DNA from: Micromonospora sp. M71_S20 | Lineage (GTDB): Bacteria > Actinomycetota > Actinomycetes > Mycobacteriales > Micromonosporaceae | NCBI RefSeq assembly: GCF_003664255.1 | Contig: NZ_RCCV01000001.1 | Span: 4,278,001-4,342,000, forward strand | Length of the DNA stretch: 64,000 bases | Direction: 5' to 3' | Part shown: positions 6,470-61,521 of the stretch, one piece after another | Position numbering within the stretch: the stretch's first letter is position 1 | How the letters are laid out: each line of letters begins with the position of its first letter | Notes under the pieces: generated by a model | The model's input: the letters and a program-made list of their open reading frames with translations, nothing else | What the model was told of the DNA's origin: nothing | The model's database searches: none | Program-made: the position numbers and the translations under genes

Positions 6470-6476
6470 GGTGTCC

Positions 6477-22150: not shown

Positions 22151-22275
22151 GGCAGGTCATGAGCGCCAGCGTCAAGCCCCGGCTCGCTGGCCGGCAACCC
22201 TCGTCCGCGCAGGGGTGCCCCGGGTGAGGACCAGGCACCGGAGCGGCTCCGGTGCAAGCGCGGCCTGGTTCCCAG
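22151..22275 (+). ncRNA. SAM-IV riboswitch
   Basis: The segment from GGTCATGAGCGCCAGCGTCA onward has the conserved core of actinobacterial SAM-IV riboswitches in the right order: CATGAGCGCCAGC, GTCAAGCCCCGGC, GCTGGCCGGCAACCCTC, GGGGTGCCCCGGGTGA and GGACCAGGC. It is followed by a small hairpin (CACCGGAG/CTCCGGTG). It binds S-adenosylmethionine and typically lowers expression of sulfur or methionine genes. Here it precedes a leader peptide and an amino-acid ABC transporter. It was recognised from sequence pattern; a covariance-model search would settle it. Confidence 0.85.
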
Positions 22276-45996: not shown

Positions 45997-46100
45997 CCGC
46001 TGCACCTCTCCGCGCCGGACGAGCCTATCAATCCATCAAGGATTCACGATGTCCTGCTCGGACCCGCGACGCGGGCGCCGACGGCCGCGCAACGGCCGGG

Positions 46101-46134: not shown

Positions 46135-48555
46135 TCAACGCCAGGTGTCGGTGCGGGTGTGGGTGCCGCCCGCCGGGGTGGTGAAGCTCCGGTTGCCGCC
46201 GGCCTCCCAGGTGACGGAGCCGTCGGGGTTCTTCTTCAGGTACTTGTACTCGACGGCGGTGTTCGGCGGCAGGCTGACGGTGGCCCGCCAGACCGGGTAG
46301 TCGGCCGGGGACAGCGCGACGGCGTTCGCGGGGTTCCAGCCGCCGAGGGCGGGGAGGTTGCCGACGACGTACACGTCCTGGCCGAAGGAGGTGGTGGCGG
46401 TGGCGTGGAAGGAGGTGGCGACCGGCCCGGCGGTGTCGCCGCGGAAGGTCTCGGTGACGGTGTGGCTGCCGCCCGCCGGGGTGGTCAGGCTCCGGTTCGC
46501 GCCGGACTCCCAGGTGACGGCGCCGGCTGCGGTCTTCTTGATGAACTTGTACTCCACGTTGGCGGAGCGGGGCAGGTCGACCACGCCGCGGAACACCCCG
46601 CCGGCGGCGGGCAGCCGTACCGCGTTCGCCGGCGCCCAGTTGCCCAGCGCCGCGACGCCGCCGACGACGTAGACCTCCTGGCCGGCGGTCACGGTCGCGG
46701 TGACGGTGAAGGTCGTGGCGACGGTGTCGCCGACGGGCCCCGGCACGTAGGTGTCGGTCCGGGTCGTCGTCCCGCCGGCCGGCGTGGTGAAGGTGCGGCT
46801 GGTGGCCTCCTGCTCTACCACCGTGGTGCCGCTCTTGACCAGGTACCGGTAGGAGACGGCGGTGGCCGCCGGCAGGTCCACCGTCGCGGTCCAGGCGCCG
46901 GTGCCGGTACGGGTCAGCGGCACGGAGGCGGTCGGGTCGCCGTTGCCGAGCGCCGGGGTGTCGCCCACGACGTGCAGCGTCCGGTCGGCGGGCAGCGAGG
47001 CGGCGGCGGTGAACGTGGTGGCCACCTTGGCGGCGGGGCCGCCACGGGCGTTGGCGTGGATGGCGACCGCGCCGTTGGCGGGGATGGTGACGGTGGCCCG
47101 GCCGCCGGTCACGGTGACCGTGGCGCCGGTGCATCCGGCGGCGGTGGCGGCGCCGGAGATGACGTCGCAGTACGCGCCGTCGGCGAGGCCGGTGACGAAC
47201 TGGGCGGTGCTGGCGGCGCCGGAGTCGTTGATGCCGATCCACCCGCGATCGCCCCGGTGGAAGCCGATGACGTTGCTGTTGACGACCGTGAAGTCCGAGA
47301 TGCTCTTGACGGCCCGGGCGGTGTTGGCCCAGCCGACCATGCCCTTGATGCCGGTGGACCGGGTCAGGCAGGTCCAACCGTCGCCGCAGACGGTGTCGGT
47401 CACGTGGCCGCTGCCGGTGGCCGGCGGCGACTGGTTGCGGTTCGACCAGGTGAAGCTGTCGTAGACCGAGGGCTTGCCGTGCGGGTACGCCAGCGCGAAG
47501 TAGTTGGCCAGGGTGTAGTCGCTGCCGTTCTTGTAGGACAGCACCACCCCGTCGCGCTCCAGGTCGTGGTTGGTGACCATGGCGAAGACGTTGGCGCCGG
47601 GCGCGTCGAGGTTCCAGTTCGGGATGTTCGCGAGGTTCGCGATCGAGCCCTGGAAGCTGGACCTGAGGCCCTTGGCGTAGGCGAAGTCGAGCACGTCGCC
47701 GTTGCCGATGAAGGCGCGGGCCTTGAGCGCGTCGTTCGAGGCGCCGTCGAAGATCTCCTGGGCGACGTACGGGCGCCTGTTCTCCGCGACCGTGTTGTCC
47801 AGTCTGCCGAGGATGGCCGCGAAGTCGGCCTTCTTGACGTGCTTGACCGCGTCGACGCGGAACCCGTCCACGCCCAGCCCGATCAGGTCGTTGAGGTAGG
47901 CGGCGATCTTGTCGCGGACCTGCTCCTTCTCGGTGTACAGGTCCGACAGGGAGAGCAGTTCGCAGCTGGTCACCTGGGACTCGTTGTTCCAGTCGGTGAT
48001 GCCGCCGGAGGTCGGGCAGTTGTCGCCGGGGTGGTGGAAGTCGCCGTGGCCGTACGGCACCGCCGGGTAGCCGTAGCCGGTGAAGGTGGTGCCGGCGTAG
48101 CCGACGGTGCCGGCGGGGTTGTTGACGCCGGCCATGTGGTTGACGACCGCGTCGACGTAGACGCGTACGCCGGCGGCGTGGCACGCGGTGACCATGGCGG
48201 CGAACTGCTGGCGGTTGCCGAACCGGCTCTCCAGCTTGTAGGACACCGGCTGGTACACCTCGTACCAGGGGTGGACCCCGTCGGCGCTGGTGGGCAGGCT
48301 GACCGACTCCTGCGGCGGCGCGACCTGGACCGCGCCGTAGCCCGCCGGGCCGAGGTGGTCGGTGCAGGCCGCGGCGACGGAGTTCCAGTTCCACTCCCAC
48401 AGGTTGGCCGTCACCTCGCTGTCGTTGAGCGCGACGGCGGCATGGGCGGGGGCGGCGGCGGTCGCCACGACCGGGGTGGCGCCGGACGCGACGACGGCGG
48501 CGGCGAGGAGCAGGCGGGGGATGCGGGCGCGCAGGGGCGGTTTCGATCGTGCCAT
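46135..48555 (-). CDS. Secreted alpha-amylase (GH13) with three starch-binding domains
   Basis: An 806-residue exported enzyme cleaving internal alpha-1,4 bonds of starch. The signal peptide ends around APAHA (about residue 39). The GH13 barrel has VDAVVNH, the nucleophile in GFRVDAVKH, the acid/base Glu in AQEIFDG and the third Asp in VTNHD. After an all-beta domain come three tandem CBM20 modules (about 505-605, 612-705 and 710-806), each with a TFTVTA-like start, a VVG(D/N/G)xxALG motif and an EYKF/KYLKK strand. One CBM20 is usual; three imply tight granule binding. Two palindromic operators lie upstream. Confidence 0.94.
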   Translation of the reverse strand: MARSKPPLRARIPRLLLAAAVVASGATPVVATAAAPAHAAVALNDSEVTANLWEWNWNSVAAACTDHLGPAGYGAVQVAPPQESVSLPTSADGVHPWYEVYQPVSYKLESRFGNRQQFAAMVTACHAAGVRVYVDAVVNHMAGVNNPAGTVGYAGTTFTGYGYPAVPYGHGDFHHPGDNCPTSGGITDWNNESQVTSCELLSLSDLYTEKEQVRDKIAAYLNDLIGLGVDGFRVDAVKHVKKADFAAILGRLDNTVAENRRPYVAQEIFDGASNDALKARAFIGNGDVLDFAYAKGLRSSFQGSIANLANIPNWNLDAPGANVFAMVTNHDLERDGVVLSYKNGSDYTLANYFALAYPHGKPSVYDSFTWSNRNQSPPATGSGHVTDTVCGDGWTCLTRSTGIKGMVGWANTARAVKSISDFTVVNSNVIGFHRGDRGWIGINDSGAASTAQFVTGLADGAYCDVISGAATAAGCTGATVTVTGGRATVTIPANGAVAIHANARGGPAAKVATTFTAAASLPADRTLHVVGDTPALGNGDPTASVPLTRTGTGAWTATVDLPAATAVSYRYLVKSGTTVVEQEATSRTFTTPAGGTTTRTDTYVPGPVGDTVATTFTVTATVTAGQEVYVVGGVAALGNWAPANAVRLPAAGGVFRGVVDLPRSANVEYKFIKKTAAGAVTWESGANRSLTTPAGGSHTVTETFRGDTAGPVATSFHATATTSFGQDVYVVGNLPALGGWNPANAVALSPADYPVWRATVSLPPNTAVEYKYLKKNPDGSVTWEAGGNRSFTTPAGGTHTRTDTWR

Positions 48556-48647
48556 GACAGGGAGACCTTCTTCCGGGGACGAAGAGGCACTGACGAGAGG
48601 GGACGGCCGTCCGCGTAGCAAAGACAATGCTCGATCGACGGCAGGCT

Positions 48648-48663
48648 CTGCAATACCTTGCAG
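48648..48663. promoter_or_regulatory. Palindromic operator upstream of alpha-amylase
   Basis: CTGCAA-TACC-TTGCAG is a perfect inverted repeat about 93 bp before the amylase ATG. It resembles the TTGCA-type LacI-family (MalR-like) sites known upstream of actinomycete amylase genes. Confidence 0.6.
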
Positions 48664-48732
48664 CAAACTTCTCGAAATTTCATGGCAACACTGTCGACAC
48701 CTCCGACAGGGCTCGTGCATAACCCGCAAAAG

Positions 48733-48773
48733 CCACGAGGCCGACGATCCATGGTGGATCGTCGGCTTCGTGG
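48733..48773 (-). terminator. Rho-independent-like terminator of the catabolic operon
   Basis: An 18-bp stem with one mismatch (48733-48750 with 48756-48773) and loop ATGGT is followed on the minus strand by CTTTTGC, a short U-tract. It lies 55 bp past the ROK kinase stop and ends the eight-gene operon. Confidence 0.75.
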
Positions 48774-48827: not shown

Positions 48828-49757
48828 TCAGCGGGGTGTCGGCACCGCCTCGCGGGCGAGGATGACCGCGCCGAGCAACGCGGCGTCGTCGGCGAAGCGC
48901 GACAGCACCACCTCCGGCGGGTACGGCAGGACCGCCGCCATCCGCTCCCCCAGCAGGCCGCGGATCAACGCGTTGCCGGCCACCCCGCCGACCAGCACCA
49001 CCCGCTGCGGGTCGAGGAGCAGGCAGCAGGTGACCAGGTGCCGGGCCAGCTCGTCCGCCCGGGCGGTCAGCGCGTCGCGGGCCGGGCCGGGCCGCTCGGC
49101 GGCGGCGGCCAGCCCCCGCGCCCCGCCCGGCACGCCGAGCGACTCGGCGAGCCGGTCCAGCGCCCGGCCGGAGAAGCCCAGCTCCAGCATCGTGCCCGGC
49201 CACGGGCCACCGGCCACGGCGTACCCGATCTCACCGGCCGCCCCGTGATGACCGGCCAGCACCGACCCGCGGACCGTGACCGCCGCCGCCACGCCGGTGC
49301 CCAGGCCCACCACCAGGCCGGGGTCGGCGTCGCGCAGCGCGCCGAGCCGCAGCTCGGCCAGGGCGGCGGCGTTGAGGTCGTTGTCGACCGCCACCGCCGG
49401 CGCCGCCAACCGGTCCCGGACCGCGTCGGCCAGGCGCAGCCCGTCCCAGCCGGGCACGTTCGGGGCCAGGTCGATGCCGTCGGAGCGGACCACGCCGGGC
49501 GAGGCGATCCCGGCCGCCGCGACCGGCGCGCCGACCTCCCCCACCAGCTTCGCGGCCAGCTCCAGCGCCCGGTCCAGGGCCTGCGGGGCACCCCGCTCGG
49601 CGTACGTCGGCACCCGCTCGCGGGCCAGCAGCCGGCCCTCGCCGTCGGCCACCCCGACCGCCATCTTGGTGCCGCCGAAGTCGATGCCGAGCAGCACGCC
49701 CGCATCGCCGGCCGGCGGCGCGGACTGGGCGGCCCGACCGGCCAGTCGCACGCTCAC
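48828..49757 (-). CDS. ROK-family sugar kinase-like protein
   Basis: A 309-residue ROK protein. The phosphate-1 motif LGIDFGGTKMAVGV is at about residues 22-35, the catalytic Asp in VDNDLNAAALAEL, and GLGTGVAAAVTV and GHHGAAGEIGYAV follow. The zinc-binding CxCGxxGC cysteine motif usual in ROK kinases is missing; the segment reads GGPWPG instead. It is probably a kinase for the sugar or sugar-like product of the operon. It is the last gene, 40 bp after the lyase stop. Confidence 0.88.
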   Translation of the reverse strand: MSVRLAGRAAQSAPPAGDAGVLLGIDFGGTKMAVGVADGEGRLLARERVPTYAERGAPQALDRALELAAKLVGEVGAPVAAAGIASPGVVRSDGIDLAPNVPGWDGLRLADAVRDRLAAPAVAVDNDLNAAALAELRLGALRDADPGLVVGLGTGVAAAVTVRGSVLAGHHGAAGEIGYAVAGGPWPGTMLELGFSGRALDRLAESLGVPGGARGLAAAAERPGPARDALTARADELARHLVTCCLLLDPQRVVLVGGVAGNALIRGLLGERMAAVLPYPPEVVLSRFADDAALLGAVILAREAVPTPR

Positions 49758-49797
49758 CGAACCACCTCCATGCCCCCGGCCGCCGCGTCCCGCGCGC

Positions 49798-51255
49798 TCA
49801 TCGGGCCGCCCCCTGCGCGGCGACCGCGTCCAGCGCCTCGTCGGCGGCGGCGAGGCGGTCGCGGACGGCGGCCAGCCGGCCGGCGACGGTGTCGAACGTG
49901 CCGCGCAGCACCGCCACCTGGGCGCGCACCGCGGCCGCGCCGGGGCCGTCGACCTGGGCGCGGTCGAGCACCAGCTCCGGGCGTACGGCGGCGGCGATCA
50001 GGTCGGCGACGGCGTCGTCGTCGAGCCCGTCGGCGATCTGATCCGCCGCCGCCCGGACGGTCTGCGCGGTCCAGGTGGCCGGGGCCCCGCCCCGGACCAG
50101 CCGGCCGACCACCGAGTGGGCGGCCCGGAACGGCACCCCGTGCCGGGTCAGCGCGTCGGCCGCGGCGGTGGTGGTGGCGCCGGAGGCGACGATCTCCTCG
50201 GCCGACGGCGGCTCCAGCGGCTCGATCTCAGCGAGGAAGCCGCCGAGCAGGGCGAAGAACCGGTCGGTGCGGTCGTTGCTCTCCCAGAGCCGCACCTGAA
50301 CGTCGGTGGTCGCGTTGTTGGAGTCCTCCCACCAGGCGGCGCCGACGTTGTTGAGCACGCTGGCGGCGTCGGCGGCGGTGGCCCCGGCCATCGAGACGAG
50401 GTGCTCCAGCACCACCGGGTTGCGCTTCTGCGGCATGATGCTGCTGCCCTGGGTGAAGTCGCCGGGCGTGGTCACCCAGCGCCAGCTCAGCCAGTCCATC
50501 AGGGTGCGGGCCAGCCGGGCGCCGGTCGCGAGGGCCTGGGCGTTGAGGGTGCCGACCCGCACGAGGTGGTCGGCGCCGGCCACCGCCTCGTACGAGTTGG
50601 TGACCAGGCCGTCGAAGCCGAGCAGCTCGGCCACCCGGGCGGGGGCGATGTCCAGGTCGGTGCCCGCGAAGGCGCAGGAGCCCAGCGGCGAGGTGTTGAG
50701 CTGGTCGATCAGGTCGGCGTAGGCGACGGCCTCACCGGCGAGGGCCTCGGCGTAGCCGGCGAGGGCGTGCCCGATGGTGGTGGGCTGCGCCGGCCGGCGG
50801 TGGGTGTAGCCGGTGATCACCACATCGGCGTAGCGGTGCGCGGAGTCCAGGGCGGTCGCGCCGGTCGCGAGCACCCGGTCCAGAACCCCGAGGAGCTGGT
50901 CGCGCAGCAGCATCCGGAACACCCCGGCGTCGAGGTCGTTGCGGCTGCGGGCCATCTGCACGTCGAGCTCGGAGGTGGGGATGCCGCACGCCTGCGCCAG
51001 CCGCTTCTCCATCAGGTAGTAGGTGTCCTCGAACGTGCCGTCGAACTCCGGCGCGCCGGCGGTGTCGGCGCGCAGTTCGGCCAGCCCGCGCAGCAGCCGG
51101 GCGCCCCGCTCGGCGGGGACCAGCCCCTGCTCGGTCAGCATCACCACGTGGGCCTGACTCGCCCGCACCATCGCCGGGAAGAGGTACCCGACGTGGTGGT
51201 CGTAGGTCGGCCGGAGGTGGTGCCGCTGGTAGGTGGTCAGCGCGGGTGTGCTCAT
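49798..51255 (-). CDS. Argininosuccinate lyase-like enzyme (ASL/fumarase superfamily)
   Basis: A 485-residue lyase. It carries the superfamily signature GSSIMPQKRNP with the catalytic Ser, GYTHRRPAQP holding the acid His, and QMARSRNDLDAG equivalent to the ASL substrate loop (GRSRND). These enzymes cleave C-N bonds with release of fumarate. Context (operon with an importer, hydrolases and a sugar-type kinase; no other arg genes) argues against arginine biosynthesis. A role in splitting an N-succinyl or N-substituted substrate is inferred. It starts 64 bp after the amidohydrolase stop. Confidence 0.82.
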   Translation of the reverse strand: MSTPALTTYQRHHLRPTYDHHVGYLFPAMVRASQAHVVMLTEQGLVPAERGARLLRGLAELRADTAGAPEFDGTFEDTYYLMEKRLAQACGIPTSELDVQMARSRNDLDAGVFRMLLRDQLLGVLDRVLATGATALDSAHRYADVVITGYTHRRPAQPTTIGHALAGYAEALAGEAVAYADLIDQLNTSPLGSCAFAGTDLDIAPARVAELLGFDGLVTNSYEAVAGADHLVRVGTLNAQALATGARLARTLMDWLSWRWVTTPGDFTQGSSIMPQKRNPVVLEHLVSMAGATAADAASVLNNVGAAWWEDSNNATTDVQVRLWESNDRTDRFFALLGGFLAEIEPLEPPSAEEIVASGATTTAAADALTRHGVPFRAAHSVVGRLVRGGAPATWTAQTVRAAADQIADGLDDDAVADLIAAAVRPELVLDRAQVDGPGAAAVRAQVAVLRGTFDTVAGRLAAVRDRLAAADEALDAVAAQGAAR

Positions 51256-51318
51256 GACGGTCTCTACTTCCTTCCGTGCCGGGCGTGGCGTCGTGCGCCG
51301 AGCCCGGGCGTCAGCCGG

Positions 51319-52272
51319 TCAGTCGTCCAGGCCGAGCAGGCGCTCGGCGTTCCCGGCGAAGATCGCGCGTAGGTGCTCGTCGGGCAGCCCCAGCTCGCGG
51401 CAGATCCGCAGCTGGTCGTCGAGGTAGCGGGTGACGTACCCGCGCGGGAACCACGACGAGTCGCTGCCGAACACGATGCGGTGCGGGCCGATGGTCTCGT
51501 AGCAACGCCGGAACAGCTCGTCCAGCGTCAGCTTGTAGGGCATCCAGCGCACCCACTGGTTCGACCCGGAGGTGTCGACGTGGATGTTCGGGCAGCCCCA
51601 CGCGGCGAAGAGCAGGTCCTGCACGTGCTGGACGCCGAAGTGCGGCACCACCACGGCCAGCTCGGGAAAGCGGCGGGCCATCCGGGCCAGCTCGTCCGGG
51701 CCGCCGTACCGGCCGTGGGACAGGCCGCCCGCGCTGCCGTAGTGGCCGATGTGGATCAGCACCGGCACGCCGAGGCGCTGGGCGGTGCCCCAGAGCGGAT
51801 CGAGGGCCTCGTCGTCGAGCGGGCCGCGCAGCAGCGGGGCGAAGAGCTTCAGCCCGCGCAGGCCCCGCTCGGTGACGGCGCGTTCCAGCTCGGCGGCGGC
51901 GTCCGCGCCGTACGGGTCGTGGTGGGCGAAGCCGAGCAGCAGGTCGGGGTGGCGGTCCACCACGTCGGCGACGGTGTCGTTGCCGCCGCCGGTGACGAAG
52001 ACCGCCCGGCGCACGTTCACCGCGCGCAGTTCCTCGGCCCAGCGGTCCGCCTCGTCCTGCCAGCGCGCGGCGGGCGGCTCCGGGTCGGGGAAGCCCCACG
52101 CCTGCCGCCACCGCCGCGCGTACGGGGCGGAGCCGGCGGCCCGTACGGCCTGCTCGTGCTCGCCGCCGGGGTGCATGTCGGCGGCGTGCTCGCAGGCCCG
52201 GATCGTCTCGTCGGCGCCGATGCGGAAGTGCAGGTGGAAGTCGACGACGTCCAGTCCGCGGTCGACGGTCAA
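51319..52272 (-). CDS. Amidohydrolase-family (ACMSD-like) metal hydrolase or decarboxylase
   Basis: A 317-residue TIM-barrel enzyme of the amidohydrolase_2 group. Metal-ligand motifs in order: DFHLHF (HxH), LGFAHHDPYG, VLIHIGHYG, VVVPHFG and the final FGSDSSWF Asp. Members decarboxylate aromatic acids or hydrolyse lactones. The start was set at TTG (52272) overlapping the upstream TGA (TTGA) with GGAGG just before it; there is no in-frame ATG or GTG near. Confidence 0.82.
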   Translation of the reverse strand: MTVDRGLDVVDFHLHFRIGADETIRACEHAADMHPGGEHEQAVRAAGSAPYARRWRQAWGFPDPEPPAARWQDEADRWAEELRAVNVRRAVFVTGGGNDTVADVVDRHPDLLLGFAHHDPYGADAAAELERAVTERGLRGLKLFAPLLRGPLDDEALDPLWGTAQRLGVPVLIHIGHYGSAGGLSHGRYGGPDELARMARRFPELAVVVPHFGVQHVQDLLFAAWGCPNIHVDTSGSNQWVRWMPYKLTLDELFRRCYETIGPHRIVFGSDSSWFPRGYVTRYLDDQLRICRELGLPDEHLRAIFAGNAERLLGLDD

Positions 52273-53192
52273 GGCGCCTCCTCGGGCTCGGGCCCACCGG
52301 CGGTCGCGTCGGTGGGCAGCGGGGCGTCGGTGGGCGGGGCGGGCGGCGGGGCGGCCACCCAGGCGGCGACGACCTCGCGCAGCCGGCTGCCGGCCAGCTG
52401 CCGGACCCGCCGACCGGCCTCCTCGCCGGCCAGCGAGATGTGCCCGGACCAGCCCTGCCACGGGTCGGGCCGGGACTCCACCAGGACGTACGGGTGGGTC
52501 ACCGGCAGCTTCGGCTTCGGCGGCAGGTCGGCGACCGCGTCTAGGCGGACCGCGTCGGGGTCGAAGCCGAGCACGCCGGAGGTCTCGTACGCCCCGCCGT
52601 GCCCGCGCGCCGGCAGCGGCCCGTACAGCTCGGCGGTCTCGGCCGGGGTGACCAGCTGGAACCAGTTGACCAGCAGCAGGCTCGCCGTGCGCCGCCCGGA
52701 GACCCACTCCATGGCGGCCCGGACCGTCGACATGTTCGCGTCGTGTCCGTTGACGATCAGCAGCCGGGGGAACCCGGCGGCCACGATCCCCTCGATCACG
52801 TCGGCGAGGTAGCCGACCGCGATCTCCGGCCGGATCGCCACGGTGCCGGGCCACGGCCGGGTCTGGCCGGGGCAGGCGGCGTACGGCACGGCGGGGAAGA
52901 GGACCCCGCGCGGGCCCGCCGCCGTCGCGCGCCCGCCGGCCGGGGTGGTCGCGGTGCCGTCCGGGGTGCCGCCGCCGGACGGCACCGCGCCGTCGCCGGG
53001 GATCGCGCTCTCGGCGGCGAAGCCCTCGGCGAGGATCAGGTCGGTGCCGAGCGGCAGGTGCGGGCCGTGCCACTCGACCGCGCCGACCGGGAGCACCGCG
53101 AAGTCCGCCGCCTCGGCGACCGCCGCGAGTTCCCCGCCGGGGATCCGGGCGGCGGGGACCAGCCCGCCGCCCGCCGGCCAGGCCGCGCTCAC
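52269..53192 (-). CDS. Creatininase-family amidohydrolase
   Basis: A 307-residue hydrolase of the creatininase/MftE/formamide-hydrolase group. Metal sites: VLPVGAVEWHGPHLPLGTD, LLIVNGHDANMSTV and GHGGAYETSG (typical GHAGxxETS). The sequence between about 70 and 105 is a Gly/Pro-rich insertion absent from relatives. It likely opens a cyclic amide or removes a formyl/amide group from the operon's substrate. The GTG start overlaps the permease stop as GTGA. Confidence 0.85.
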   Translation of the reverse strand: MSAAWPAGGGLVPAARIPGGELAAVAEAADFAVLPVGAVEWHGPHLPLGTDLILAEGFAAESAIPGDGAVPSGGGTPDGTATTPAGGRATAAGPRGVLFPAVPYAACPGQTRPWPGTVAIRPEIAVGYLADVIEGIVAAGFPRLLIVNGHDANMSTVRAAMEWVSGRRTASLLLVNWFQLVTPAETAELYGPLPARGHGGAYETSGVLGFDPDAVRLDAVADLPPKPKLPVTHPYVLVESRPDPWQGWSGHISLAGEEAGRRVRQLAGSRLREVVAAWVAAPPPAPPTDAPLPTDATAGGPEPEEAP

Positions 53193-54982
53193 GCCGTCCA
53201 CCGGGCCGCCTCCCGACTGGAACGCCGGCCGCCTTCCAGCCGGCCGGAGACCACCATCACCACGAAGATCAGGACAACCTGGAGCATGCCGTACGCGGCG
53301 GCGGTGCCGACCTCGAACGAGTACATCCGGTTGTTGATCTCCACGGAGATCGGCGCGGTCTCGGAGGTGTAGATCAGCACCGAGGCGACGAACTCGCCGA
53401 CGCCGTGCACGAAGGCGAGCAGCGCGCCGGCCACCACACCGGGCAGCATCAGCCGCAGGGTGACCGTGCCGAACGCCCGCCACCAGGACGCGCCCAGGTT
53501 GCGCGCGGCCTCCTCCAGCGACGGGTCGATCTGCGCCAGGGTGGCCGAGCTGGACCGGAACACCAGCGGCAGGAACCGCACGAAGTACGCCAGCGGCATG
53601 ATCCAGAAGGTGCCGATCAGCACCTGCCCGAAGCTGAACGCGTTGCCCGTGCTGAACGCCGAGATCAGGTTGATCGCCACCACCGTGCCGGGCAACGCCC
53701 AGGCCAGCATGACCGCCACGTCCAGCAGGCCCCGGCCGCGGAAGTCCAGCCGGCGCACCGCGTACGCGATGAGCACGCCGACGACGACGCAGGCGACGGT
53801 GGCGATGAGGCTCATCTGCAGCGAGTTGAGGATCGGCTGGAACGCCGCCGGATCGGAGAAGATCGTGACGAAGTTCTGCGTGGTGTACGCCGCCGGGATG
53901 ACCTCGGTGGTCCAGGAGCCGTCCTGGGAGAACGCGACCAGGGCGATGGTCGCCACCGGCGCGAGCAGGACCGCGGTGGCCAGGACCGAGGCGGCCAGGG
54001 CGAGCCACTTGCCCAGCGGGTTGGTGATCTCGCGGCGGTGCGCGGCGACGCCCTTGGACTGCGAGCGGTAGCTGCGCCGCCCCTCGTACCAGCGCATGCC
54101 GAGCAGGAACAGCACCGAGACCACGCCGAGCACCGAGGCGTACGTGGAGGCCATCGGCAGGTCGCCGTTGGTGCGGTTGATGTAGATCTGCATGGTCATC
54201 GTCTGGTCCACCCCGAACAGCAGCGGGGCGGTGTACGACGCCAGCGAGGTCATGAACACCAGCAGCGAGGCGGAGACCAGCGCCGGGGTGAGCATCGGCA
54301 GCAGCACCGTGCGCCACACGCGGACCCGGCCGGCGCCCAGGTTGTACGCCGCCTCCTCCACCGACGGGTCCATCCCCGACAGCGCGGCCGAGGCGGAGAG
54401 GTAGAAGTACGGATACATGGTGAAGGTGTGCACGACCAGCACACCGGCGATGCCGCTGAACGGCAGCACCGGGTTCTCGGCGCCGAAGAGCTGCTGGAGG
54501 CCCCGCGGCAGGATGCCGGTCTCGCTGTAGAGCAGCTGGAACGAGATCGCCCCGATCAGCGGCGGCAGCGCCGCCGGCACCAGGATGATCGCCTCGATCA
54601 GCTTGCGGCCGGGAAACGAGAAGCGCTTGAGCAGGAAGGCCATCGCCACGCCCACGACGCCGCAGAGCAGCACGCTGGCCGCGGAGATGATCAGCGAGGT
54701 GACCAGGGAGGACCGGGCCACGCCCCCGCCGGTGACGAAGCTGCCGTAGTTCTCCACGCCGTCCACGCCGACGCTCTCGGCGAAGGTGGCGAACATCGGC
54801 TGCACCACGTACCCGAAGAGGATCAGGGCGAGCGGGAAGACCAGGACGTACGGGAACCAGCGCGAGCCGGTGCCGCCGGCGAACCGGTCGGCGAGGCGGC
54901 GGCGCGGGCCGCGCGGCGGCGTCGGCTCGCCGGTGATCGGGGCGACGGTGGCCGGGCTGGGGGTGGCGGGGATGGTGCTCAC
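53189..54982 (-). CDS. Fused ABC permease (Fe/2-aminoethylphosphonate/thiamine type)
   Basis: A 597-residue protein with two permease halves in one chain, each with about six helices and its own EAA motif (DPSVEEAAYNLGAGRVRVWRTV and DPSLEEAARNLGASWWRAFGTV). This two-in-one layout is typical of FbpB/ThiP-type transporters. It forms the channel for the binding protein at 56145. The GTG start overlaps the ATPase stop (GTGA). Confidence 0.93.
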   Translation of the reverse strand: MSTIPATPSPATVAPITGEPTPPRGPRRRLADRFAGGTGSRWFPYVLVFPLALILFGYVVQPMFATFAESVGVDGVENYGSFVTGGGVARSSLVTSLIISAASVLLCGVVGVAMAFLLKRFSFPGRKLIEAIILVPAALPPLIGAISFQLLYSETGILPRGLQQLFGAENPVLPFSGIAGVLVVHTFTMYPYFYLSASAALSGMDPSVEEAAYNLGAGRVRVWRTVLLPMLTPALVSASLLVFMTSLASYTAPLLFGVDQTMTMQIYINRTNGDLPMASTYASVLGVVSVLFLLGMRWYEGRRSYRSQSKGVAAHRREITNPLGKWLALAASVLATAVLLAPVATIALVAFSQDGSWTTEVIPAAYTTQNFVTIFSDPAAFQPILNSLQMSLIATVACVVVGVLIAYAVRRLDFRGRGLLDVAVMLAWALPGTVVAINLISAFSTGNAFSFGQVLIGTFWIMPLAYFVRFLPLVFRSSSATLAQIDPSLEEAARNLGASWWRAFGTVTLRLMLPGVVAGALLAFVHGVGEFVASVLIYTSETAPISVEINNRMYSFEVGTAAAYGMLQVVLIFVVMVVSGRLEGGRRSSREAARWTA

Positions 54983-56052
54983 GGCCGCACCACCCACATC
55001 CGCTCCCGGTTCAGCCGCAGGCCGACCTGGTCGCCGGCGGCGATTCCGGCCGGCACGTCGATCGCGGCGACCTGCACCGGCTCGCCGGCCACGTCGACCA
55101 CGAGGTTGGTGGCCATGCCGGTGAACTCCACCTCGGTGACCCGGCCGGGCAGCGCGCCCGCCTCGGTGGCCGAGGTCAGCCCGATGTGCTCGGGACGGAC
55201 GGAGACCAGCGCGGTGTCGCCCTGGCGCAGGCCGTGGTCCGTCGGGGCGGGCGCGGTGATCTCGCCGCCGGCGGGCAGCCCCACGGTGACGGTCTGCGCG
55301 GCGGCGGCGACGACCGGGAGGCTGAGCACGTTGCTGCGGCCGATGAAGCGGGCCACGAAGCTGGTCGCCGGGCGGTGGTAGATCTCCTGCGGGGCGCCGA
55401 TCTGCTGCACCCGGCCGGACTGCATGACCGCGATCCGGTCCGACATGGCCATCGCCTCGGCCTGGTCGTGGGTGACGTAGATGGAGGTGGTGCCGGCCTC
55501 GCGCTGGATGCGGCGGATCTCGACGCGGGTCTCCTCGCGCAGCTTGGCGTCGAGGTTCGACAGCGGCTCGTCGAGCAGCAGGGTGCGGGGCCGGATCACC
55601 AGCGCCCGGGCCAGGGCGACGCGCTGCTGCTGGCCGCCGGAGAGCTCGTCGATGCGCCGGTCGCCGTAGCCGGCGAGGTGCACCTGGCCGAGCGCCTCCT
55701 CGACCCGCCGCCGCGCCTCGACCCGGCCGACCTTGCGGATCTTCAGTCCGTACGCGACGTTCTGCGCGACGCTCATGTGCGGGAAGAGCGCGTAGTTCTG
55801 GAACACCATGCCGGTGTCGCGCTTGTTCGGCGGCCGGCGGGTGACGTCCTCGGTGCCGAACCGGATCCGGCCGGAGGTGGGGAAGTAGAACCCCGCCACC
55901 ATGCGCAGGGTGGTGGTCTTGCCGCAGCCGCTCGGGCCGAGCAGCGTGAAGAACTCCCCGGCGGCGATGGTGATGTCGACGTCGTCCACGGCCGCGGTGT
56001 CGCCGCCGCGCGCGAAGCGCTTGCTCACCGACTCGAGCGTGACATCGATCAT
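54979..56052 (-). CDS. ABC transporter ATPase (PotA/FbpC type)
   Basis: A 357-residue ATPase. Walker A GPSGCGKTT (about 39-47), Q-loop VFQNYALFPH, signature LSGGQQQR, Walker B LLLDEPLSNLDAKL and His-switch YVTHDQAEAM are intact. A C-terminal TOBE domain (about 285-357) is seen. FbpC/PotA-type ATPases serve iron, polyamine, phosphonate and sulfate importers. The ATG has GAGAGGAC upstream. Confidence 0.94.
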   Translation of the reverse strand: MIDVTLESVSKRFARGGDTAAVDDVDITIAAGEFFTLLGPSGCGKTTTLRMVAGFYFPTSGRIRFGTEDVTRRPPNKRDTGMVFQNYALFPHMSVAQNVAYGLKIRKVGRVEARRRVEEALGQVHLAGYGDRRIDELSGGQQQRVALARALVIRPRTLLLDEPLSNLDAKLREETRVEIRRIQREAGTTSIYVTHDQAEAMAMSDRIAVMQSGRVQQIGAPQEIYHRPATSFVARFIGRSNVLSLPVVAAAAQTVTVGLPAGGEITAPAPTDHGLRQGDTALVSVRPEHIGLTSATEAGALPGRVTEVEFTGMATNLVVDVAGEPVQVAAIDVPAGIAAGDQVGLRLNRERMWVVRP

Positions 56053-56144
56053 GAGGTCCTCTCCTTCGTGCGGTACCGGACCTGGACGGTCGTCAGGTGG
56101 GGGCGCGGGGGCGGGACCGGCCCGCCCCCGAAACGCCCGGGCGG

Positions 56145-57197
56145 TCAGCCCTTGTTCTTGATCTGGCCGTTCCAGTGGTTGATCCACTCGGTCTCGTTCT
56201 TGCCGATCACGTCCCAGTTGACGTCCAGCGGCTTGAGGTTGAGCTGGGCCAGCCACTCCGGCTTCTCGGCGATGTCCACGGCCGGGATCTGGTAGTAGTC
56301 CTTGGCCAGGTCGGCGCGGAGCTTGTCGTCGAAGAGGAACTCCATGAACTTCTGGGCGCCGGTGGTGTTGCCGCCCTTGACCGCGGCGATGCCGTCGACC
56401 AGCACCGGGGCGCCGGAGGCGGGCATCACGTAGCCGAACGGCATGTTCGACTGGTTGGCCTGGAGCAGGACGTCCTGGAGGTTCCAGGCGCTGAGCACGC
56501 CCTGCTGGCGGGAGAGCTTCAGGTAGAGGTCGGTCGGGTTGGCCGCGTACGCGCCGGTGTTGGCGTCGAGCTTCTTGAGCCAGTCGTAGCCGGGCTGCGG
56601 GTTGCTGCCGTCCGGGGACTGCCGCATGATCATCGCGGCGTAGATCGACCGCATCGTGCCGGACGCGGCCACGTCCCGGATGATGATCTTGTCCTTCCAC
56701 TCCGGCTTCAGCAGGTCGTCCCAGTCCTTCGGGGCCTGCTCCGGGGTGAGTGCCTTGTTGTTGTACATGATGACCTCGGGGAGCAGGATCTCCCCGAACC
56801 AGCGGCCCTCGGCGTCCTTGTACTTCGGGTCCATCTTGCCGGCGAACGCCGGCTGCCAGGAGGTCAGCAGGTCCTCGCCGGCGCCGGCGGAGAGCCCCTG
56901 CTGGGTGCCGCCCCACCAGACGTCGGCCTGCGGGTTGGCCTTCTCGGCCCGGACCCGCTCCAGGATCTCCTGGGCGCCCAGGTTGAGGATCTCGACCTTG
57001 CCCTTGTACTCGGGGTACTTGGCGGTGAACTGGTCCACGACGTAGGTGGAGACCTTCTTGTCGCGGGCCGTGTAGATGGTCAGCTTCTCGGCGCTCGCGC
57101 CGCCGGCCGCGTCGTCGCCACCACCGCCGCCGCCACAGGCGGTGCCGGCGGCGAGCACGGTGGCGAGCGCACCGGCGAGGAGAAGTCGACGTCTCAT
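56145..57197 (-). CDS. ABC transporter binding lipoprotein (FbpA/PhnS-like)
   Basis: A 350-residue type-2 binding protein. Lipobox AGTAC has Cys near residue 21, with a Gly-rich linker. The mature part starts KLTIYTARDKK and includes ADVWWGGTQQGLSAG, LLPEVIMYNNKAL, KIIIRDVAASGTM and YVMPASGAPVLVDGIAAV, as in ferric or 2-aminoethylphosphonate binding proteins. Iron-binding Tyr pairs are not obvious, so a small organic anion is as likely. The ATG has GGAGG six bases upstream. It is second in the operon. Confidence 0.9.
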   Translation of the reverse strand: MRRRLLLAGALATVLAAGTACGGGGGGDDAAGGASAEKLTIYTARDKKVSTYVVDQFTAKYPEYKGKVEILNLGAQEILERVRAEKANPQADVWWGGTQQGLSAGAGEDLLTSWQPAFAGKMDPKYKDAEGRWFGEILLPEVIMYNNKALTPEQAPKDWDDLLKPEWKDKIIIRDVAASGTMRSIYAAMIMRQSPDGSNPQPGYDWLKKLDANTGAYAANPTDLYLKLSRQQGVLSAWNLQDVLLQANQSNMPFGYVMPASGAPVLVDGIAAVKGGNTTGAQKFMEFLFDDKLRADLAKDYYQIPAVDIAEKPEWLAQLNLKPLDVNWDVIGKNETEWINHWNGQIKNKG

Positions 57198-57246
57198 GGG
57201 GTACCTCCGAGGGTGTGGGGAGAACTGCGGTGTGCGTGGTGTGTGG

Positions 57247-58410
57247 TCAAGGGGTCGGCAGCAGGGTGGGCATGCCGGCGGCAGCCGCGGAGAGGGCGTA
57301 GCTGACCGCCCCGTGCAGCACCGCCCGGTCGCCGAGCACGGCCCGGCGCACCTCGGTGGTGCTCGGTGCGGCTGCGGCGACCAGCGCCTGGAGCCGGTCG
57401 ACGGCGGCGTCGTCGAGGTGGGCGGCCGCCCCGCTGAGCAGCACCCGCCCGGGGTCGACGACGCAGACGCAGGAGACGATGAGCCGCGACCAGGCCGTGA
57501 GCACGTCGTCCAGGTAGGCGGCGGCCCGGTCGTCGATGGCCGCCAGCGCGACCAGGTCGGCCACGGGCGAGTCCGGCCGCCGCCCGGGAGCCAGTGCCAC
57601 CATCCGCTCGGCGATGGCGTTCTCCGACCAGCGGGCCTCGAACGGGCCGATCCCGTCGTGGCCCCGGTCGGTCGGGTCCAGCGGAAGGAAACCGACCTCG
57701 CCGGCGGCCCCGCCGGCACCCCGGCGGACCTGCCCGTCGAGCACCAGGCCGGCGCCGATGCCGTCGGCCACGTGCAGCAGCAGCAGGTCGGCGACGTCGC
57801 TGCCCGCGCCGACCGCGTGCTCGCCGGCCGCCATCAGGTTCACGTCGTTGTCCACCACCACCGGCACCCCGAGCCGCCGTTGCACCGACTCCCCCACCGG
57901 CCGCCCCTCGACGAGGCCGACCGAGGGGGCCAGGCGCACGGCGCCGCCGGTGGAGACGCCGGGCGCGGCGATGGCCACCCCGCGCAGCGCCGGCAGCCCG
58001 TCACCGGCCAGCTCGGGCACCGAGCGGCAGATGGTGTCGACGATGTCGCCGGCGAGCCGGACCGCACGGTGGGCGATGACGGCGCCGTCGCTGTCGGCGA
58101 TCTCGCAGCTGATCCGGGACGGCTCCAGGGAGACGGCGGCGACCAGTTCGGCCCGGGGGTTGAACTCCAGCATCGCCCGGGGGCGGCCGGTGCGGGAGGT
58201 CCCGGGGCCGCGCTCGATGAGGTACCCCTCGGCGATCAGCTCGCGCACGAGCGGGGTGAGCGTGGCGGGGCTCAACCCGGTGAGCTCGGTCAGCTCGGCG
58301 CGGGAGAGCACCCGCACCTGGCGGGCGGTGGAGATCACGGACAACCGCTTGATCTCCTTCGACCGCTCCCGGCTCACCGGGCTCGTTGGTGGCGTCACCA
58401 CGTCTGTCAC
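57247..58410 (-). CDS. ROK-family transcriptional repressor
   Basis: A 387-residue repressor. An N-terminal MarR-like winged helix (about 20-80, LSRAELTELTGLSPATLTPLVRELI) is joined to a ROK sugar-binding domain with VVDNDVNLMA and GAGGAAGEVGFLP. The Cys zinc motif is absent. As the first gene of the operon and next to a 21-bp palindrome it very probably regulates itself and the seven following genes. The GTG at 58410 lies six bases after a -10-like TAGGAA, suggesting a leaderless mRNA. Confidence 0.9.
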   Translation of the reverse strand: MTDVVTPPTSPVSRERSKEIKRLSVISTARQVRVLSRAELTELTGLSPATLTPLVRELIAEGYLIERGPGTSRTGRPRAMLEFNPRAELVAAVSLEPSRISCEIADSDGAVIAHRAVRLAGDIVDTICRSVPELAGDGLPALRGVAIAAPGVSTGGAVRLAPSVGLVEGRPVGESVQRRLGVPVVVDNDVNLMAAGEHAVGAGSDVADLLLLHVADGIGAGLVLDGQVRRGAGGAAGEVGFLPLDPTDRGHDGIGPFEARWSENAIAERMVALAPGRRPDSPVADLVALAAIDDRAAAYLDDVLTAWSRLIVSCVCVVDPGRVLLSGAAAHLDDAAVDRLQALVAAAAPSTTEVRRAVLGDRAVLHGAVSYALSAAAAGMPTLLPTP

Positions 58411-58445: not shown

Positions 58446-58466
58446 GTAACGAAACCGTCTCGTTAC
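58446..58466. promoter_or_regulatory. Candidate ROK repressor operator
   Basis: GTAACGA-N7-TCGTTAC is a perfect 7+7 inverted repeat that abuts the -35 of the ROK operon promoter. It is the best operator candidate for the adjacent ROK repressor. Confidence 0.65.
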
Positions 58467-58824: not shown

Positions 58825-61521
58825 ATGCGTCTCAAGGCGTTCCTGCTACCCACGGCGCTCGCCCTGGCCCTGTCCGGGACACCGGCCGTGGCCCTCGCCG
58901 CCCCCTCCGACGCCCGGCCGACCGACGCCGTCGACCTGGACGTCCTCTTCGTCAGCGCACACCCCGACGACGAGGCCGGCAGCCTCGCCACCCTCGGCCA
59001 GTGGAAGGAGAAGCACGGCGCCAAGGCCGGCGTCGTCACGATCACCCGCGGCGAGGGCGGCGGCAACGCCGTCGGCCTGGAGGAGGGGCCGCCGCTGGGC
59101 ATCATCCGCGAGCGCGAGGAGCGCACCGCGATCGGCCGCGCCGGGGTGGAGAACCTGTACAACCTCGACCGCGTCGACTTCTGGTACACCGCATCCGCGC
59201 CCCTGTCGGAGCAGATCTGGGGGCACGACGACACCCTGGCCCAGATCGTCCGGGTGATCCGGCAGACCCGGCCCGAGATCGTCATGACGATGAACCCGTC
59301 GCCCACGCCCGGCAACCACGGCAACCACCAGCAGGCCGCCCGCTTCGCCGCCGAGGCGTTCCACGCCGCCGCCGACCCGAAGGCCTTCCCCGAGCAGGTC
59401 ACCAAGGAGGGGCTCAAGCCGTTCCGGGCGGCGAAGTTCCTGCGTACCGGCGGCACCGGCAGCTCGTCGACCGGGCCGCAGTGCGCCACCGGCTTCGTGC
59501 CGGCCGTCCCGACCGACCAGGTGTTCGGCGTCTGGGAGGGCACGCGCAGCGCCGGCGGCAAGACCTGGGCCGAGGTCGAGGTCGACGCCCGCCGGGACTA
59601 CGTGACCCAGGGCTGGGCCAACACCGCCGCCGCCCCCACCGACCCGGCGAAGATCCGCTGCGACTTCTACACGCTTGTCGACAGCCGCGTCCCGTACGAC
59701 CCGGCGGACACCTCCCCCGAGGCGATCCTGCGCGGCTCGGTGCTGCCCCCGGCGGCCGGCGGGCTGCCCGGCGGCACCGAGCTCTACCTGACCGCCGACC
59801 GGTTCGACCTCGCCCCCGGGCAGAGCGTCGAGGTCACCGCGCACGTGCGGGCGCCTCGCAACCGGGCACTCACCTCGCCCCGGGTCTCGCTGCGGCTGCC
59901 GCAGGGCTGGACCGCCGTCGGTTCCGGTGCCGTGCGCGGCGCCGTACCGGCCGGCAAGGAGCGGACCGTCACCTTCACCGTGACCGTTCCCGCCGGCGCC
60001 GACACCAACGAGCAGCACCTCGTCGGCGCGTCCCTGACCACCGGGCAGGGCACCGGCCGTACGGACCGCGCGGTCCGGGTGGTCGCCGACGTGCGCGGCA
60101 CCCTGGAGCCGCTGCCCGAGGTGGGGCTGTTCCGCACCTGGGCCGGCGACAGCGGCTACCCGCAGCTGGACACCCTGATCAAGCCGGTGCTGACCATCGG
60201 CTCCGGCAAGAGTCGGACGGTCCGGGTCGACCTGCGCAACCACGGCGAGACCGCCCAGAGCGGCACGGTCGCCCTCGGTCTGCCGGCCGGCTTCACCGCC
60301 GACGCGGCGACGAAGAGCTACGCCGCCCTGGCGCCGGGCGCCACGGGGGCGGTCACCTTCACCGTCACCAACAGCGACGCCAGCCTGCCGACCGCCAACG
60401 AGGGTGGCGACGGCGGCGACTACGGGATCACCATCACCACCACCAGCGCCGCCGGCAGCACCGTGGAGACCGGCGCCCTGGAGATCGTGCCGACCAGCGA
60501 GGTGCCGCACGCCGGGCACGACCACGCCGTCGACGGGGTGGCCTCCCCCGGCGAGTACCCCGGCGAGGAGCTGGACCTGTCCCGCATCTGGGAGGGGCAG
60601 GCCACCACCGGGCAGGACGCCTCGGCCACCGGCCGGATCGCCTTCACCGAGGACGCGCTCGTCGTGTTCGTGCAGGTCACCGACGACGTGCTCGGCAAGA
60701 AGGTGGTGCCGCAGGACTGCAAGCGGCAGCGGCGCACCGACAGCGTGGAGATCATCGTCGACCCGAAGGGGAACTCGACGGACACCTCCACCGTGTTCAA
60801 GGCGGGCATCTTCCCGGTCACCGACGACCCCGCCAGCGGCGACCCGCCGTGCTGGCAGCGCGACGCCGACAACCGGCAGGGACCGGGCGCCACGACCGCC
60901 CCGGGGATGACCGTCGTCAGCAAGGTCACCGCGCCGTACGCCGGCTACACCATCGAGGCGCGCATCCCGTTCGCGGTGCTGCCCGACGCCATCGACCCGG
61001 CGCGGATGGGCTTCAACGTGCTGGTGTACGACTCGGACACCCAGGACCTCAGCTCCCAGTCGCGGCTGGGCTGGTCCACCTTCACCGGCGTCCGGGCCGA
61101 CCCGTACCGGTACGGCCTGGTCACCCTGCCCGGCCTCACCCCGGCCCAGCGGCAGCCCAGCGCCCCGGTCTTCCCGGACACCGCCGCCCGCAGCGTGCAC
61201 AGCCCGCAGACCATCGCGCAGTCGGCGGTGGACGGCGTGGCTCCGGCCGCCGTCGCCCGCCTGCCCGAGCGGGCGCTGCGGCTGACCGGCCAGCGGCAGG
61301 TGGCCGGTGGCGTGCAGGTGACCGTCCGGGCCGACCGCGCCGGCACGGTGTACCTGCACACCGCCGACGGCGACCGGTCGCTCGGTGAGCGTTCGGTGCA
61401 GGTGCGCTCCGGCCGCCCGGTCACCGTCCTGGTGCCGGTCGCCGGTGGCACGCCCACCTCGGTCCTGGCCGCCTTCGAGGCCGACGGTGCCGCGCTCGCC
61501 CGCCAGGTCCCGCTGACCTGA
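58825..61521 (+). CDS. Secreted PIG-L-family deacetylase with C-terminal sugar-binding-like domain
   Basis: An 898-residue exported zinc enzyme. The signal peptide ends ALAAP (about residue 26). The PIG-L/MshB-type domain has zinc motif AHPDDE at about 45-50 and the third ligand His in GNHGNHQQAA. Beta-sandwich NEW3-like domains follow (about 310-560), then a CBM9/DOMON-like domain (about 570-760; DSVEIIVDPKG, TIEARIPFAVL). PIG-L enzymes remove acetyl from GlcNAc-linked compounds. Large secreted forms probably act on extracellular glycans. The ATG has AAAGGA upstream. Confidence 0.88.
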   Translation: MRLKAFLLPTALALALSGTPAVALAAPSDARPTDAVDLDVLFVSAHPDDEAGSLATLGQWKEKHGAKAGVVTITRGEGGGNAVGLEEGPPLGIIREREERTAIGRAGVENLYNLDRVDFWYTASAPLSEQIWGHDDTLAQIVRVIRQTRPEIVMTMNPSPTPGNHGNHQQAARFAAEAFHAAADPKAFPEQVTKEGLKPFRAAKFLRTGGTGSSSTGPQCATGFVPAVPTDQVFGVWEGTRSAGGKTWAEVEVDARRDYVTQGWANTAAAPTDPAKIRCDFYTLVDSRVPYDPADTSPEAILRGSVLPPAAGGLPGGTELYLTADRFDLAPGQSVEVTAHVRAPRNRALTSPRVSLRLPQGWTAVGSGAVRGAVPAGKERTVTFTVTVPAGADTNEQHLVGASLTTGQGTGRTDRAVRVVADVRGTLEPLPEVGLFRTWAGDSGYPQLDTLIKPVLTIGSGKSRTVRVDLRNHGETAQSGTVALGLPAGFTADAATKSYAALAPGATGAVTFTVTNSDASLPTANEGGDGGDYGITITTTSAAGSTVETGALEIVPTSEVPHAGHDHAVDGVASPGEYPGEELDLSRIWEGQATTGQDASATGRIAFTEDALVVFVQVTDDVLGKKVVPQDCKRQRRTDSVEIIVDPKGNSTDTSTVFKAGIFPVTDDPASGDPPCWQRDADNRQGPGATTAPGMTVVSKVTAPYAGYTIEARIPFAVLPDAIDPARMGFNVLVYDSDTQDLSSQSRLGWSTFTGVRADPYRYGLVTLPGLTPAQRQPSAPVFPDTAARSVHSPQTIAQSAVDGVAPAAVARLPERALRLTGQRQVAGGVQVTVRADRAGTVYLHTADGDRSLGERSVQVRSGRPVTVLVPVAGGTPTSVLAAFEADGAALARQVPLT

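Follow-up and report, generated by a model that had tools for sequence, protein, structure and literature searches.

The 64,000-nucleotide stretch of the Micromonospora sp. M71_S20 genome considered here (contig NZ_RCCV01000001.1, positions 4,278,001 to 4,342,000; the window below is this whole stretch) contains a group of eight tightly packed minus-strand genes at 48828-58410 that includes an enzyme of the argininosuccinate lyase (ASL) family. Pfam families could be assigned to all eight products (Table 1), and both the gene positions and the names given in the initial annotation, which was made from the letters alone, agree with these matches. That annotation had described the genes as mostly linked by overlaps, which holds for three of the seven junctions: the ATPase and permease genes overlap by 19 bp, and the permease/creatininase and creatininase/amidohydrolase pairs by 4 bp each. 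It does not hold for the remaining four, which have gaps of 40-92 bp. Judged from the sequence, the view of the eight genes as one catabolic gene unit is supported.

Table 1. Features of the operon and of other parts of the window (window coordinates; roles are predicted)
Feature	Position	Strand	Length	Basis or remark
Terminator-type hairpin, directly 3' of the kinase gene	about 48733-48773	-		-38.3 kcal/mol, z -7.8; position derived from the fold
ROK-family sugar kinase, predicted glucosamine 6-kinase	48828..49757	-	309 aa	PF00480, 115 bits
ASL-family lyase, predicted to release fumarate from a glucosamine conjugate	49798..51255	-	485 aa	PF00206 (111 bits), PF14698
Amidohydro_2 family protein, candidate alternative hydrolase	51319..52272	-	317 aa	PF04909, 131.7 bits; TTG start
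Creatininase-family metal hydrolase, predicted amide hydrolase of the pathway	52269..53192	-	307 aa	PF02633, 143.8 bits
Fused double permease of the ABC importer	53189..54997	-	602 aa	two BPD_transp_1 stretches
ATPase of the ABC importer, with TOBE domain	54979..56052	-	357 aa	PF00005, PF08402 (ABC_tran+TOBE_2)
Solute-binding protein of the ABC importer	56145..57197	-	350 aa	SBP_bac_6, 76.7 bits
ROK-family transcriptional repressor	57247..58410	-	387 aa	PF00480, 99 bits
Near-palindrome, candidate operator, between the repressor and PIG-L genes	58446-58466		21 bp	upstream of the repressor
PIG-L (GlcNAc de-N-acetylase family) protein with NPCBM_assoc and CBM9-like domains	58825-61521	+	898 aa	PF02585, PF10633, PF06452
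SAM-IV riboswitch	22155-22266	+		100.8 bits
NB-ARC/TPR protein	43519-46005	-
Alpha-amylase with three CBM20 starch-binding stretches	about 46138-48750	-		directly downstream of the operon

The palindrome and the terminator that had been named as the bounds of the operon are both present. The hairpin after the last gene is strong and is followed by a short T-run (CTTTT); it is absent from the output of a simple terminator scan. With four changes or fewer allowed, the palindrome occurs upstream of 12 of 65 repressor genes, as against 1 of 1300 single-base shuffles; three genomes are doubled among the 12, which leaves nine, all of the M-type described below, and no copy was found outside near relatives among the 65 upstream regions.

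The list of eight genes stands but leaves out a ninth that belongs with the operon, a divergent gene for a large protein of the PIG-L family, i.e., the N-acetylglucosamine (GlcNAc) de-N-acetylases. Its PF02585 match (78 bits, cut-off 28.2) places the protein in the family, and its sole NCBIfam matches are BshB1 (44.6 bits), Mca (36.4 bits) and MshB (35.2 bits). The N terminus resembles a secretion signal by eye, and the protein is probably secreted. Homologues also flank the operon elsewhere: those of near relatives in Micromonospora are 75-90% identical, and identity falls to about 49-54% in loci of the Jiangella type and of Micromonosporaceae further removed. The gene accompanies the operon in 31 of 42 distinct M-type loci and is absent from the fetched stretch in eight; the other three (L029, L059, L140; L numbers denote loci and G numbers genomes) are cut by a contig end on that side, giving 31 of 39 assessable loci. 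At L060/L124 and L123 it lies at the opposite end, beyond the kinase gene. Five PIG-L genes are found in total in the genome that holds the window. The one beside the operon is the best clue to the substrate: as described in part of PMC4360819, the BshB1, Mca and MshB families act on N-acylglucosamine joined to malate or inositol.

The other products are less telling. The best NCBIfam match of the repressor is NagC (82 bits, below the cut-off of 650). The solute-binding protein reaches 88 bits with PhnS2 (TIGR03261; cut-off 392.8), and the solved chain closest to it in sequence belongs to a protein that binds pyridoxal-5-phosphate (82 bits); phosphonate import was dropped, as the PhnS2 and PhnS cut-offs are both missed. 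The Lyase_1 and ASL_C2 domains of the lyase and its SSxMPQKxN signature place it in the ASL/fumarase superfamily, at 218.2 bits with the argH equivalog TIGR00838 (cut-off 279.5). The creatininase-family protein scores 71 bits with the creatininase equivalog TIGR04448 (cut-off 235), and the ROK kinase is under all listed NCBIfam kinase cut-offs (ROK glucokinase, 81 of 260 bits). Since lyase, creatininase and kinase all fall short of curated equivalog or subfamily cut-offs, the reaction must be read from context. An inositol link, raised by weak matches of the creatininase to IolN and of a PfkB kinase to IolC, lies far under the cut-offs and was dropped. The Amidohydro_2 protein has no NCBIfam family match at E 0.001, and hence none to an ACMSD-type decarboxylase equivalog. 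Its AlphaFold model (pLDDT 85) is nearest to Amidohydro_2-type decarboxylases and uncharacterised relatives (TM about 0.6, 17% identity), which places the modelled protein in the superfamily only.

Conservation of the gene neighbourhood provides much of that context. A scan of genome contigs found 206 relatives, of which the best 80 were retained. Searches of the class and the family, both even draws, detected the lyase (E 1e-90) in 10 genomes out of 394 and in 26 out of 200, respectively, and neighbourhoods were taken for 20 of these places. The M-type, found in Micromonosporaceae, Jiangella-type and similar genomes, was tallied at 44 loci, of which L124 and L126 repeat L060 and L061, leaving 42 distinct. 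Its order of repressor, solute-binding protein, ATPase, permease, creatininase, lyase and ROK kinase is conserved, with lyase and creatininase in 42/42. The amidohydrolase is inserted before the lyase in 25 of the 42 and absent from 17. A close lyase orthologue occurs in 12 of 37 genomes of a genus sample, nine of them with the amidohydrolase, and no genome of the 37 has the amidohydrolase without the lyase. This has a bearing on the decarboxylation that the initial annotation placed in the pathway: because the amidohydrolase is dispensable, also being unannotated in the 15 alphaproteobacterial regions described below, decarboxylation is not needed and is rejected as a core step.

Traces of the lyase gene appear in further genomes of the same genus. 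Fragments of 56-88 residues with 70-94% identity occur in G007 (L016, L034) and G025 (L035); the 19.5 kb examined there holds no close orthologues of the remaining operon genes, and the fragments are probable remnants of a lost operon. In G014 the lyase match (L028/L058) has one in-frame stop in the search output.

Two further forms of the gene cluster use different partners. The S form, from Saccharopolyspora, Saccharomonospora, Actinomadura, Arthrobacter and Cryobacterium, has lyase, PfkB kinase and amidohydrolase in 16/16 loci, a creatininase in 0/16 and a repressor in 14/16, the stretches of the other two (L085, L086) starting inside the cluster. NagB lies at the end of the amidohydrolase gene in six loci, a SIS gene takes the same place in four, and six have neither. 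The C form, from Chloroflexota, Bacillota metagenome-assembled genomes and others, comprises 43 loci with the amidohydrolase, 12 of them with the lyase too. Typically the lyase-bearing loci run amidohydrolase, sugar solute-binding protein, permease, permease, lyase; L102 differs and L082 has the lyase further away. A BadF/NagK-like kinase is present in 16 C-type loci (one, L116, also with the lyase). Three lyase-less loci hold a glycosidase-family gene together with amidohydrolase, importer and kinase-type genes: a GH4 gene lies beside a PfkB kinase gene in L117 and L120, and a GH125-like gene beside two ROK genes in L118, whose genome gives a best match of only 27.7 bits in a search with the ASL-family model.

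Plasmids extend the picture beyond the Actinobacteria. An ASL-family match was found in 271 plasmid records, of which 16 ASL regions and one amidohydrolase region were opened first and six regions later; the choice was non-random and includes several near copies (Aminobacter three times, Loktanella twice). A sugar ABC (ATP-binding cassette) importer lies near the lyase in 11 of the first 16 ASL regions, four are other systems (L145, L152, L154, L157) and one is unannotated (L143). On a Deinococcus plasmid the order is ROK, lyase, PIG-L/CBM9, sugar ABC importer, short PIG-L and PfkB; the large PIG-L protein has the same PIG-L+NPCBM_assoc+CBM9 architecture as that of the window, and the short one comes near MshB (160 bits, cut-off 224). 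A second Deinococcus region (L149) has the lyase and sugar ABC importer alone. For the Alphaproteobacteria, 15 of 27 lyase-bearing plasmid records were opened, with gene tables from PLSDB that are incomplete. A sugar solute-binding protein and two permeases accompany the lyase in 15/15 (in L148 the binding protein gene lies at a distance, on the opposite strand), and in 15/15 the gene after the lyase encodes an ABC ATPase. A ROK regulator is present in 12/15, PIG-L in 10/15 and glucosamine-6-phosphate deaminase in 4/15. A PfkB or ROK gene occupies the kinase position in 11/15, counting the long ROK proteins (360-403 aa) of L155 and Loktanella, which could be second regulators. Within the limits of these tables, the 15 regions have neither a creatininase nor an amidohydrolase annotated. 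Among 72,556 plasmid records the large PIG-L protein (E 1e-60) occurs in 21, from ten genera and including nine from Aminobacter, and all 21 also hold the lyase, which is found (E 1e-100) in 27.

On gene content, then, the window operon is the actinobacterial form of a putative catabolic module that Chloroflexota, Deinococcus and Alphaproteobacteria carry as well. The ASL-family lyase forms the core. Around it are found an ABC importer, in most cases a ROK repressor, in many a sugar kinase, whose family varies, and an amide hydrolase of the PIG-L, creatininase or Amidohydro_2 type. A PIG-L, creatininase or amidohydrolase gene lies near the lyase in nearly all loci, with L148, L150, L155, L156, L167 and Deinococcus L149 as exceptions.

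The lyases of the module also form a sequence group of their own. Thirty-nine rows of an alignment were assigned to this clade: 21 with a neighbourhood seen (the window, nine C-type, nine alphaproteobacterial and two Deinococcus) and 18 for which the protein alone was available, 11 of them from or near groups with loci seen and seven not. The signature SSxMPQK[RK]NPVxxEH is present in all 39 and in six of six further alphaproteobacterial lyases, and in none of 15 other ASL-family rows. The fumarate-site motifs SRND and TH are kept throughout the clade, and the window lyase should thus release fumarate. What has changed is the arginine side: where the ArgH type has the loop D[LM]QE, 38 of the 39 rows, and none of the 15 others, read D-x-[NQV]-[ND]. 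The window lyase itself reads DSNN for D[LM]QE, and NPV for N[P/A]D, so that the acidic residue after KKN[P/A] is lost. In the tree the 39 rows form one side of a branch with support 93/79, recovered in 92% of 200 bootstrap trees. Some members reach the TIGR00838 cut-off (L108, 321.8; L142, 307.2) or come narrowly under it (L102, 277.9), which explains the annotation of L108 and L142 as argH. A second ASL-family gene in the genome that holds the window (L158) groups with the Thermus thermophilus ArgH (99/94). The ASL-family gene of the Streptomyces plasmid region L145 is outside the clade and lies among nonribosomal peptide synthetase, ATP-grasp, cysteine-synthase-like and kinase genes, a setting that is probably biosynthetic.

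The initial annotation had proposed chelators related to ethylenediaminedisuccinate (EDDS) as substrates. To our knowledge, EDDS lyase has no amino-sugar context. That enzyme is the top solved match of the window lyase, at 162 bits versus 140 for the best ArgH, but the tree joins it to the ArgH-type rows (80/89), apart from the window clade. It carries D and Q where the clade has V and H; D290 and Q159 are the residues named for EDDS lyase in the part of PMC12363623 consulted. Several outside rows of the tree are long branches and the EDDS lyase row is partial as well, so the separation of the clade from EDDS lyase and ArgH is well supported without being conclusive. Sugar kinases, NagB and PIG-L would have no place in EDDS breakdown, and the gene neighbours suggest an amino sugar. 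Degradation of EDDS or another aminopolycarboxylate chelator is therefore rejected as very improbable.

The amino sugar is indicated most directly by glucosamine-6-phosphate deaminases, which occur within the clusters of separate lineages as two unrelated folds. NagB overlaps the end of the Amidohydro_2 gene by 4 bp in 6/6 NagB-bearing Arthrobacter-type loci (the one scored reaches 281 bits with a NagB subfamily and 209.3 with TIGR00502, under the cut-off of 236.9). In Paroceanicella it overlaps a ROK gene by 4 bp (L155, 242.1 bits), and in two Loktanella records, where the divergent arm runs ROK, PIG-L, NagB, it adjoins PIG-L (L166, 250.9 bits; L169, 251.6 bits); these three are over the same cut-off. 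The second fold is represented by a SIS-type, NagB-II-like gene in the Roseomonas cluster (313 bits, under the NF046059 cut-off of 430) and by the SIS-type genes of four Saccharopolyspora/Saccharomonospora loci (three scored, at 187.5, 195.3 and 184.7 bits against 430). The placement of deaminases of two folds with the lyase in separate lineages suggests that the pathway ends at glucosamine-6-phosphate.

An amino-sugar product would also arise from an Amadori or Heyns compound, i.e., a glycation product of a sugar with asparagine or aspartate that is deamidated and then cut by the lyase at its C-N bond to yield fumarate and an amino sugar, which would be phosphorylated and deaminated. ASL-family enzymes classically cleave N-substituted aspartates, NagB is compatible with such a route and, as far as described in the parts of the Salmonella literature consulted, the fructose-asparagine pathway likewise has a kinase (FraD) along with a deglycase (FraB). 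This route leaves PIG-L beside the lyase in three phyla unaccounted for, and the 15 alphaproteobacterial clusters have no annotated creatininase or amidohydrolase for the amide removal. NagB substrates are 2-amino-2-deoxy sugars, so the Heyns form alone would fit. Given PIG-L and NagB, such compounds are demoted to an unlikely rival.

Taken with the divergent PIG-L gene, the operon probably encodes the breakdown of an N-acylated glucosamine conjugate. The reactions, their order and the substrate are predicted here from gene content, conservation, the lyase signature and the deaminase and PIG-L neighbours. The pairing of PIG-L with a neighbouring lyase in three phyla suggests an N-acylated glucosamine with something at another position, and the intact fumarate site of the lyase suggests that this something leaves as fumarate. 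The N-acyl group would be removed outside the cell by the PIG-L protein, inside it by the creatininase-family and Amidohydro_2 enzymes, or both, and the conjugate would be taken up by the ABC importer under control of the ROK repressor. The lyase would then eliminate the C4-dicarboxylate half as fumarate to give free glucosamine, which the ROK kinase would convert to glucosamine-6-phosphate. A deaminase (NagB or SIS-type) would yield fructose-6-phosphate and ammonia; its gene is part of the cluster in some lineages but, if the genome of the window has one, lies outside the cluster there. The import, kinase step and sugar-linked substrate of the initial annotation are supported, as is its fumarate-releasing lyase, whose fumarate-site motifs are intact. 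That the creatininase and amidohydrolase act as N-deacylases is something we infer, with weak support from a hydrolase slot that is nearly always filled.

The simplest known candidate for the conjugate is glucosaminyl-malate, the scaffold of bacillithiol (an antioxidant of bacteria); we propose it tentatively, at somewhat less than even chances. Bacillithiol is Cys-GlcN-malate, BshB is a GlcNAc-malate deacetylase, and bacillithiol reaches 3.5-5.2 mM in stationary phase, according to the portion of PMC4360819 consulted. Glucosaminyl-malate would fit the deaminase, PIG-L and fumarate-site clues with known chemistry, making PIG-L, lyase, kinase and NagB a complete route; all four gene types are found together in Loktanella. 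The lyase would in that case cut a C-O bond, and we infer that the leaving half is malate rather than aspartate. An ASL-family enzyme turned glucosaminyl-malate lyase by C-O bond elimination, in a module that has reached several phyla and whose deacylases and kinases can be swapped, is a possibility held with the same reserve.

The ordinary C-N chemistry of the family would be kept if the lyase worked on the acyl half, a hydrolase first releasing glucosamine and an N-substituted aspartate that the lyase would split. We know of no such natural glucosamine amide. The nearest solved relatives of the lyase include EDDS lyase, which handles N-substituted aspartates (described in part of PMC12363623). 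The three lyase-less loci with a glycosidase-family gene look as if the lyase did the job of a glycosidase, and action of the lyase on the acyl half seems improbable. Less improbable, though still not favoured, is another amino-sugar conjugate, e.g., an N-acylglucosamine glycoside with another acid aglycone, or a set of lineage-specific substrates on a shared importer-lyase frame. Hydrolase, kinase and transporter families vary by lineage and some loci have no kinase or hydrolase nearby, but the single lyase signature (39/39 and 6/6) argues for one shared reaction.

A number of observations weigh against the proposed breakdown of such a conjugate and against glucosaminyl-malate as its substrate. 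The PIG-L protein of the window is under the cut-offs of BshB1 (182.5), Mca (277) and MshB (224), and PIG-L is found in 0/16 S-type and 0/12 lyase-bearing C-type neighbourhoods. The lyase is lacking in 31 of 43 C-type amidohydrolase loci (fetched stretches of 5.6-21 kb, some cut by a contig end), so the amidohydrolase may do something else there; it could be a decarboxylase or C-C hydrolase instead, and its model resembles decarboxylases. Of the 12 lyase-bearing C-type loci, five have a ROK or BadF hit and seven have no ROK, PfkB or BadF gene near the lyase, and no kinase is annotated in 4/15 opened alphaproteobacterial regions. No glucosamine-6-phosphate deaminase was found in the 42 distinct M-type loci. 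The genome of the window has no NagB-I (the control matches 8 of 14 genomes), and its SIS proteins, at 193 and 130 bits, fall far short of the 430 bits required for NagB-II, the model used also matching all 14 control genomes; the 130-bit protein is probably GlmS. The branch that unites the lyases is short of full support, and the identity of the substrate rests on parsimony. The proposed pathway leaves unexplained why Micromonospora keeps PIG-L, creatininase and amidohydrolase together. Marine bacteria also carry the module, although bacillithiol is not known to us as a nutrient in the sea.

Other genes were noted in and around the clusters. An EamA/DMT gene directly follows PIG-L in 5 of 10 opened alphaproteobacterial PIG-L clusters (L142, L147, L151, L165, L168), and two scored EamA genes reach 42-43 bits with a general amino-acid transporter model. 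A gene at L147:297-950 is annotated as cysteine dioxygenase and has no NCBIfam match. These transporter and dioxygenase neighbours are only suggestive of cysteine as the released acyl group. In L148 (Terrarubrum) a gene at 6121-6969 for an AidB-like protein of the lactonase family (metallo-beta-lactamase fold) lies just upstream of the permeases, in the usual position of the solute-binding protein. For orthologues of PRK06705, 43 genomes from the phylum of G637 were searched, and none of the controls matched. In the window itself, the stretch TTGCAAGTATTTGCA upstream of the alpha-amylase gene was judged by eye to be like sequence upstream of the PIG-L gene; the NB-ARC/TPR gene and the riboswitch are listed in Table 1.

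The module, present in several bacterial phyla, is seemingly undescribed so far. A literature search limited to papers readable without subscription found no description of this gene set and no paper on bacillithiol catabolism or degradation, and the bacillithiol passages of PMC12826064 describe no such pathway. If the proposal is true, the "argH", "PIG-L deacetylase" and "ROK family protein" annotations in these clusters hide a mis-annotated catabolic pathway, and there would be a breakdown route for the scaffold of a major low-molecular-weight thiol. The ASL family would gain a further lyase reaction, one that fumarate absorbance makes simple to assay, and false argH calls could be put right when arginine pathways are reconstructed.

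Several known systems come close to the module or its parts. The window lyase shares the fold family, the SRND, TH and SSxMPQK motifs and the expected fumarate release with ArgH, but it is under the argH cut-off and has the arginine-side loop replaced. EDDS lyase (Chelativorans; PDB 6g3d-6g3i, 6rx8) is the best solved relative by score, belongs to the ASL family and has SRNDL, but lies on a separate branch with other residues on the amine side. The nag operon for GlcNAc catabolism is similar in its ROK repressor, kinase and NagB-type final steps; the module has no NagA among annotated neighbours and instead uses an ASL-family lyase with PIG-L, creatininase or amidohydrolase. The Salmonella fra operon likewise imports a sugar-amino acid compound and acts on it with a kinase and at its amino group, but uses, in the parts of its literature consulted, an asparaginase and a deglycase and has no ASL-family lyase. 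Bacillithiol biosynthesis (BshA/BshB/BshC) and the amidases Mca and Bca share with the module the PIG-L family and a substrate in which N-acylglucosamine is joined to malate (or inositol). Those systems make or recycle the thiol, whereas here lyase, kinase and deaminase would consume its scaffold.

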